NCBI RefSeq assembly: GCF_040954835.1
Contig: NC_090698.1
Coordinates: 7,306,001-7,370,000, forward strand
Source: Lepisosteus oculatus
Taxonomy: Eukaryota; Chordata; Actinopteri; Semionotiformes; Lepisosteidae
Reading direction: 5' to 3'
Length of the DNA stretch: 64,000 bases
Positions 48,363 through 50,101 of the stretch are shown one piece after another. The position numbers were made by a program, and so were the translations under genes. A model generated the notes under the pieces. The model worked only from the letters and a program-made list of their open reading frames with translations. It searched no databases and was not told the DNA's origin. Numbering within the stretch: the stretch's first letter is position 1; each line of letters starts with the position of its first letter.

Positions 48363-50101
48363 TTAGGGCTGCCACGCTGCGCCCCCGCCCGGTAGGGGGC
48401 ACTGTGTCACGGCTGAACATCCTGCAGCAGGCTGGGGATAGAAGTTCTGGATGTGGGCGAAGGGGACGGGCATGGTTCGGCCCGGGATCCAATACGGCCA
48501 GTTTCTCTGTCTGATACGAGGTAAATGACGAGCCCTGCGGTTCTGGAACCACACCTAGAAGAAAACACTCAGGATTAATCCTAAATAATGACATTGAGTT
48601 ATTTGCAAAAACGAAATGTGCTTTTGCACAGGACCAAGTTAGCCGACATAGTATCTACAGTAGCGCTATGAGCAAAGCAACCGCCGAAACTGTTGCGCTG
48701 GTGGAGTCGCCGCTACTGTCTGTAATTTTGTAGGAAACAGTTCAGTTCAGTACTTCACTGCCAACTAGTTGCATGAAATTTGACCTTTTGATAAGCTCGT
48801 ACAATTAAAGCTATAATTGAACCTAGAACAGACTAAGCATGGTTCCGAAATGTTTCGCGTTTGATTTTGTTAAGTCACAAACTGAATAACAAAACATTTC
48901 TGAACAACAACATGTTAAGCTGCCGTTGCATTAGCAATGAAGTTAGCGCCTGCCTCAGATAGGAGTCTATGAGTAGATCCATTAATTTTCATGACATTAG
49001 CCAGTAGATAACCGGCCTGGATGTCAGATCCCTTTGCTGACTTATTTCCCACTCTTGTTGATGATGACAACCAACCCCTACCGTCCACCAACAACACAAC
49101 CCACCCACATCCTATAAGCTGGTTTGGCAATATTTTACTTCTGTGCTCCTTTTTACCTTCAATTGCAAACGCACAAACCACGACTTTCAAACTGCAAAGC
49201 GGCTGGAAATAGAACATTGGCGGCGTTTCAGCCGGTCATGAAATCTCCGCCTTTCCTCGGCTGCCTCTCTGCATCTCCGCACAAACGCTGTGCCTGTCTC
49301 CCCGCGCCCGCTTTTACCAGAACAAGATCTCTGCAGCAGCGCAACTCACCTGGATTCTGGACTCCTGGATGCCGGTGAGCTCGGAGAGCCGGGTGCGCTT
49401 CTTGTAGTCGGGATAGGGATCGGCCTCGAAGCTTCTTTTCAGGACGTCCGTCTGCTCTTTGGTGAAGAGGGTCTTCCTCCTCTTCCCCTTCGCCAGCTCC
49501 ACGGGGGAATTCCCGGCGGCTCCCGGGTGCCCACTCCGCGGCGCCGGGGCTGCGCTCGGCGGCCGGGGCGCGTTTTCCTTCTTCTCGTCCAGCTGGCGGA
49601 GGCGTGTCTCGGCAGCAGCGCCGTCCGGGCCCGGGAGAGCTAAACCAAGCGAGCGACAGAAGAGAATCTTAATGGTCAACCCTGTGGGGTACTCAGAGGT
49701 GGACCGAGCTGTGGTGCGAAGTCGAAATTAAAAAAAAAAAACCTGCTGCACCTGCCAGAACGTTATAACTATGTCGTAGCACGCAAGCGCTCTTGGAGAG
49801 CGAGCAACGATTGATGGGGAGCAGAAATTGAACGTTTTTGCTCACGCTACGTACTCCTCCTATACATCACTACTCATATGCATTCGTTTCAGAAGCGATG
49901 CTCGATTCAATTAACAGCATTTTTTTTTCCAATTAGAAAAGGCCTTTTCGTGAAACGAAACGACTGCCAAGACTTACCGTTAAGGCGGAAAAAGCCGTCA
50001 TCAAGCGCCCACGACGGCAACTGGACTGGGCCCGTGCAGTAGTCCTGCTCCAGGGACAAAATGGTGCTCAGAAGCTCCTCGGTCTCTCGGTCTAGTGCCA
50101 T
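48363..50101 (-). CDS. Paired-class homeodomain protein, siamois/twin-like (201 aa, three exons)
   Basis: DNA-binding transcription factor. Exons on the minus strand: 50101-49978, 49639-49350 and 48554-48363; donors GTAAGT and GTGAGT, acceptors TTTAG and TTCTAG, phases consistent. I start at ATG 50101 (A at -3, G at +4), not at the in-frame ATG 50197, which lies in the promoter octamer. The homeodomain is residues 93-152 (GKRRKTLFTKEQ...), with F8, W48, F49, Q50, N51, R53. The intron between homeodomain positions 46 and 47 is the paired-class site. The N-terminus has an acidic/leucine motif, ETEELLSTILSLEQDY. After the homeodomain come ARHLPR and a 49-residue tail with NWPYWIP. No paired domain, octapeptide or OAR. 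The short protein, N-terminal LSLE-DY motif and ARHLPR resemble what I recall of amphibian siamois/twin. Alternatives are mix/bix, sebox or dux-like genes. Confidence 0.75.

Follow-up and report, generated by a model that had tools for sequence, protein, structure and literature searches.

The stretch of DNA analysed here (the window; 64 kb, C3:7306001-7370000, in a genome of 1.200 Gb and 813 contigs) harbours, on its minus strand at 50101-48363, a siamois-like homeobox gene of three exons whose spliced open reading frame encodes 201 amino acids (aa) and ends in TAA. Exon 1 (49978..50101; predicted) carries the start codon and encodes residues 1-41 plus the first base of codon 42, giving an acidic and hydrophobic N-terminus with the motif LSLEQDY at residues 15-21. 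It is followed by intron 1 (49640..49977; GT-AG, donor GTAAGT and acceptor TTTAG), by exon 2 (49350..49639; donor GTGAGT), which encodes a linker and homeodomain (HD) residues 1-46, by intron 2 (48555..49349; donor GTGAGT and acceptor TTCTAG), which splits the HD at 46/47, and by exon 3 (48363..48554), which encodes HD residues 47-60, a tail of 49 aa and the stop codon; all lie on the minus strand. Exon 1 is the weak point of this gene model, its prediction being based on an open frame, phase-compatible splice sites and the promoter. Around the start codon, position −3 is A and position +4 is G; GC at third codon positions is 0.77.

The HD occupies residues 93-152, with glutamine at position 50 (Q50). 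Pfam matched the 201-aa product to homeodomain models alone, namely PF00046 (68.8 bits; E 3.5e-19, far above chance) and the KN model PF05920 (30.2 bits), which overlaps the HD; thus no paired domain is present, and a simple motif scan found no OAR-type motif. The complete three-exon 201-aa gene at these coordinates, the Q50 paired-class HD with its intron at 46/47, the absence of paired and OAR domains, the N-terminal LSLEQDY and the short tail, all proposed in the initial annotation, were thereby borne out. Among the first 42 residues, 8 are acidic and 2 basic, and no eh1 motif was found by motif scan; both features would suit an activator role. A tblastn search of the window with the 201-aa product returned the gene's own three exons and three further lines at E ≥ 1.4.

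The 10 kb around the gene (44479-54201) contain five tRNA-like genes, for Asn, Leu, Thr, Ile and Gly, some of which may be repeat-derived. Its neighbour is a hes gene of the her8/hes6.2 kind (~39315-41749; bHLH, Orange and WRPW end), an intron of which holds a 31/62-bp minisatellite (39498-40038). The window also contains an FMO-like gene (57485-63173) with minisatellite arrays at 58948-59605, and a single-exon receptor gene (15369-16328) whose nearest solved structure is LPAR6. When 16 neighbour stretches (4 inside the window and 12 spread over 200 kb of flanking DNA) were surveyed with Pfam, a family was assigned to 10: a serpin, two rhodopsin-type receptor pieces, an L6 membrane protein, a metallo-beta-lactamase, TAF6 and a calpain in the flanks, and bHLH and Hairy-orange pieces of the hes gene plus a Rossmann piece of the FMO-like gene (FMO-like by eye) in the window. 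The remaining six had no Pfam family, including a frame read by eye as VGF. The block as read here runs VGF, serpin, receptor, hes, the siamois-like gene, FMO, L6, lactamase, TAF6 and calpain. We take TAF6, MBLAC1, SERPINE1 and VGF to lie together on human 7q22.1. In the available parts of the Hes-family and Xenopus axis literature, nothing was found that connects her8/hes6.2 with siamois by synteny.

Tandem runs of 10 or 11 homeobox matches were located on C1, C10, C12 and C31 (among the best 150 of 372 homeobox candidates). These are probably four Hox clusters, as in jawed vertebrates that did not undergo the teleost duplication, such as a holostean; hence the host is probably not a teleost, and the fish origin that had been supposed is backed only indirectly, by the cluster number and the genome size.

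Upstream of the gene and on the same strand, a TATA-like box GCTTATAAGC (50180..50189) is positioned ~83 bp 5′ of the start codon, and a site scan placed an octamer ATGCAAAT (50190..50197) directly adjoining its upstream side. This adjacency of octamer and TATA, noticed post hoc, has its sole occurrence within 264 kb in this promoter. Sites for TCF/LEF were chosen for scanning because of the siamois hypothesis, and three putative ones were found, ATCAAAG (50409..50415), the TCF/LEF-like TTCAAAG (50458..50464) and ATCAAAG (50542..50548), in the same orientation and all inside 140 bp. The 500 bp upstream of the gene thus hold three loose sites, two of them strict, counts that were reached by fractions of 0.011 (loose) and 0.0055 (strict) of 2,000 shuffles; among the three upstream lengths tried, the longer ones dilute the enrichment (0.069 and 0.021, respectively, at 1 kb; 0.133 and 0.0785 at 2 kb). 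For overlapping 500-bp windows of the flanks (n=1,995), 0.55% contain at least three TCF sites and 0.10% additionally have two strict ones, and one further spot in the 64-kb window (53032-53169) has three loose sites inside 140 bp. The same 2 kb upstream were additionally scanned for T-box, FoxH1, P2, P3, TAATCC, octamer and Sox sites. The TCF/LEF cluster matches what would be expected of a beta-catenin target.

A protein search of the host genome with the 201-aa product yielded 134 matches at E ≤ 1 (best 150 of 166 candidates scored). Its own exons account for the first three, and among the matches listed all 131 others overlap the HD part of the query, none hits the N-terminus or tail alone, and the gene is single copy. 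Neither the protein nor an HD alignment retrieved a relative from IMG/VR, nor did the HD alignment retrieve one from GTDB genomes. Eight relative loci were fetched, of which four (L064-L067) hold Mix/Sebox-group homeodomains and two (L068 and L069) are paired-class genes of other kinds; the filter used picked out nothing in L070 or L071. By likeness we take L065 to be mixl1, L067 to be sebox (evidence from the exon with HD 1-46 alone), L064 to be mxtx and a further locus, L072, to be dharma-like. Identity to the siamois-like HD over 45 columns is 24 for mxtx, 22 for mixl1, 21 for L066 and 20 for sebox, and 20 and 18 for HD2 and HD1 of DUX4, respectively. L066 (C29:8655720) is itself an unnamed divergent paired-class gene of the Mix/Sebox group, with HD KRRRRTAFSGAQRRSLEEAF..VWFQNRRARFYRNK and an intron at 46/47.

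L072 (C3:1766702-1765536, minus strand; three exons by eye) resides on the same contig as the siamois-like gene, 5.6 Mb apart. It has the eh1 motif FTIDNILS at its N-terminus and a first exon that is single copy in the genome, and its homeodomain is divergent, with the C-terminal end VWFKNRRARKKRQ / VWFKNRRARKKRQG. One weak TCF site occurs in its 898 bp upstream versus three for the siamois-like gene, and this lone site does not help the dharma reading of L072.

The host genome thus has its mixl1-, sebox-, mxtx- and dharma-like genes at other loci, and the siamois-like gene is not any of them. Identity with mixl1 and with sebox was rejected in view of the separate L065 and L067, with mxtx in view of the separate L064, whose long C-terminus is missing here, with dharma in view of the separate eh1-bearing L072, and with single-homeobox DUX (sDUX) because the mxtx HD scores higher on the DUX structures. 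It is the existence of those genes as separate loci that carries these rejections; the approximately unbiased (AU) tests described below reject no grouping.

A homeodomain phylogeny, suggested in the initial annotation as a means of placing the gene among mix, sebox and dux, was built on an alignment of 60 columns and 28 rows; the sebox row and the 20 panel rows lack the final 13 columns. From a panel of 35 loci, the 20 with a clear paired-class frame were used, L049 entered via L072, and 14 were left out as near-duplicates, other classes or unclear. The siamois-like gene formed a group with mxtx and the two HDs of DUX4 (93/90), within a Mix/Sebox set (86/90) outside which the eh1-bearing L072 fell. 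Good support is confined to 3 of the 25 inner branches, and in AU tests none of six groupings with the siamois-like gene was rejected (p 0.11-0.36: mxtx 0.114, DUX4 0.182, L072 0.228, sebox 0.293, mixl1 0.333 and L066 0.358). The tree thus gives a neighbourhood, not an ortholog: the HD is a Q50 paired-class homeodomain of the Mix/Sebox/Mxtx/Dux group, and within it the 60 columns single out no ortholog.

Since separate mixl1-, sebox-, mxtx- and dharma-like genes are present, what remains among the known families is siamois. Siamois and twin are defined by a paired-class Q50 homeodomain without a paired or OAR domain, and the gene shares this constitution along with the three putative TCF/LEF sites in 140 bp of its proximal promoter. 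A resemblance of the 201-aa product to siamois, LSLEQDY included, is our presumption. By elimination and fit, we consider it somewhat probable that the gene is an activator of siamois type, induced by Wnt/beta-catenin, and the ortholog of amphibian siamois/twin, function and orthology being taken jointly. The siamois-type reading of the initial annotation thus gains from the distinctness of the gene, the TCF/LEF cluster and the acidic N-terminus without eh1, and, if the siamois and dharma names are both right, has to give up a simple replacement by dharma.

Were the gene such an activator, dorsal nuclear beta-catenin together with TCF would turn it on at the onset of zygotic transcription, with a Pou5f3-type factor perhaps acting on the promoter octamer. 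The protein would then bind TAATNNNATTA (P3) sites as a dimer of Q50 paired-class homeodomains and activate organiser genes via its acidic N-terminus. One such target could be goosecoid, which from its sequence we take to be represented by L043 and L073. Counted from the goosecoid start codon, two putative P3 sites lie at −438 (TAATCAGATTA) and −342 (TAATTTCATTA). Two P3 sites arose in 2.35% of base-content shuffles of the goosecoid upstream sequence, and among 990 overlapping flank windows of equal length, 62 contain at least one P3 site and 5 at least two. These sites may serve other homeodomain proteins. For Xenopus gsc, the available portion of one report describes Wnt activation as mediated by Siamois and Twin (PMC6679436).

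Among the alternatives, it is rather unlikely that the gene is a fast-evolving, fish-lineage offshoot of mxtx, perhaps with an early embryonic role, and not an ortholog of siamois. No other HD in the genome comes closer than that of mxtx, a Mix-type gene of fishes and frogs (24 of 45 columns; 47% over residues 83-140), both have Q41 in TG-I/L-QES, and the two pair at 91/81 when DUX4 is left out of the tree. However, mxtx pairs with DUX4 (91/72) and not with the siamois-like gene when DUX4 is included, the match is confined to the HD region, the long C-terminal part of mxtx is missing from the siamois-like gene, and the branch of the latter is long (0.82), which makes a young mxtx duplicate unlikely.

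That the gene is a fish sDUX is quite improbable. Among solved structures, DUX4 chains match both the protein and its HD best, 8ejo (listed just as a homeobox domain-containing protein, which we take to be platypus sDUX) ranks seventh / eighth, and the AU test leaves a grouping with DUX4 standing. Nevertheless, the mxtx HD outscores the siamois-like gene on 8ejo (71.0 versus 59.6 bits) and on DUX4 (120.8 versus 106 bits); in this comparison of three homeodomains (mxtx, L066 and the siamois-like gene), L066 scored lower on the DUX homeodomains. The mxtx homeodomain of L064 is, in its own right, strikingly DUX-like by these scores, and mxtx and DUX may represent one ancient family.

Orthology with zebrafish dharma/bozozok, by which siamois and dharma would be one gene under two names, is about as improbable: a similar supposed role, the AU result for a pairing with L072 and the three TCF sites as against the single weak one of L072 speak for it, yet dharma/bozozok has an N-terminal eh1 repressor motif, which the siamois-like protein lacks and which, together with the end of its HD (VWFKNRRARKKRQ), makes L072 the better protein candidate.

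Returning to the siamois reading, the initial annotation had further proposed, for the case of orthology, that the siamois-type switch is older than amphibians and was lost or replaced in teleosts, which use the unrelated dharma. The dharma-like gene on the same chromosome, if both names are right, speaks against simple replacement and instead implies two coexisting genes with different later losses. Tentatively, and with a probability that we put somewhat short of even, the bony-vertebrate ancestor had two Wnt-induced organiser homeobox genes, an activator of siamois type and a repressor of dharma type; both would persist on one chromosome of this fish, frogs would have kept siamois and teleosts dharma, and amniotes and salamanders would have lost siamois. 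If so, siamois would be an ancient switch and not an anuran invention. In the consulted part of one study, siamois was not found by searches in axolotl and is described as an anuran innovation (PMC4029075); the siamois reading thus requires a loss in axolotl, and proof of a fish ortholog would matter. Such an ortholog, if true, would make the organiser switch older than the split of ray-finned and lobe-finned vertebrates, and a genome with both siamois- and dharma-type genes would allow a direct test of one replacing the other. Among the matches listed, titles and abstract openings on siamois evolution report no fish siamois, and a literature text search did not find the printed letters of this HD.

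Among known systems, Xenopus siamois/twin (sia1 and sia2) are alike in their short protein, Q50 paired-class HD, TCF/LEF promoter sites (here as sequence only) and activator-like N-terminus; the siamois genes of the frog form a cluster, on chromosome 3, whereas the siamois-like gene is single copy in a fish. Mxtx has the nearest HD, Q41 and the intron at 46/47 in common with it, and is unlike it in its long C-terminal region and its separate position at C4:43.67 Mb. The DUX4 and 8ejo homeodomains are among its top structure matches, yet are closer to mxtx. Mxtx genes are present in frog and fish, according to the part of PMC5596316 consulted. Dharma/bozozok of zebrafish is, like siamois, an organiser homeobox gene under Wnt control, and is described in the accessible portion of the source as its functional equivalent, too divergent for a true orthologue (PMC4744249); the dharma-like L072 is a separate gene, 5.6 Mb off. 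Siamois/Twin is presented as a transcriptional activator, and Dharma is described as repressing BMP-2 (PMC8628936, in part).
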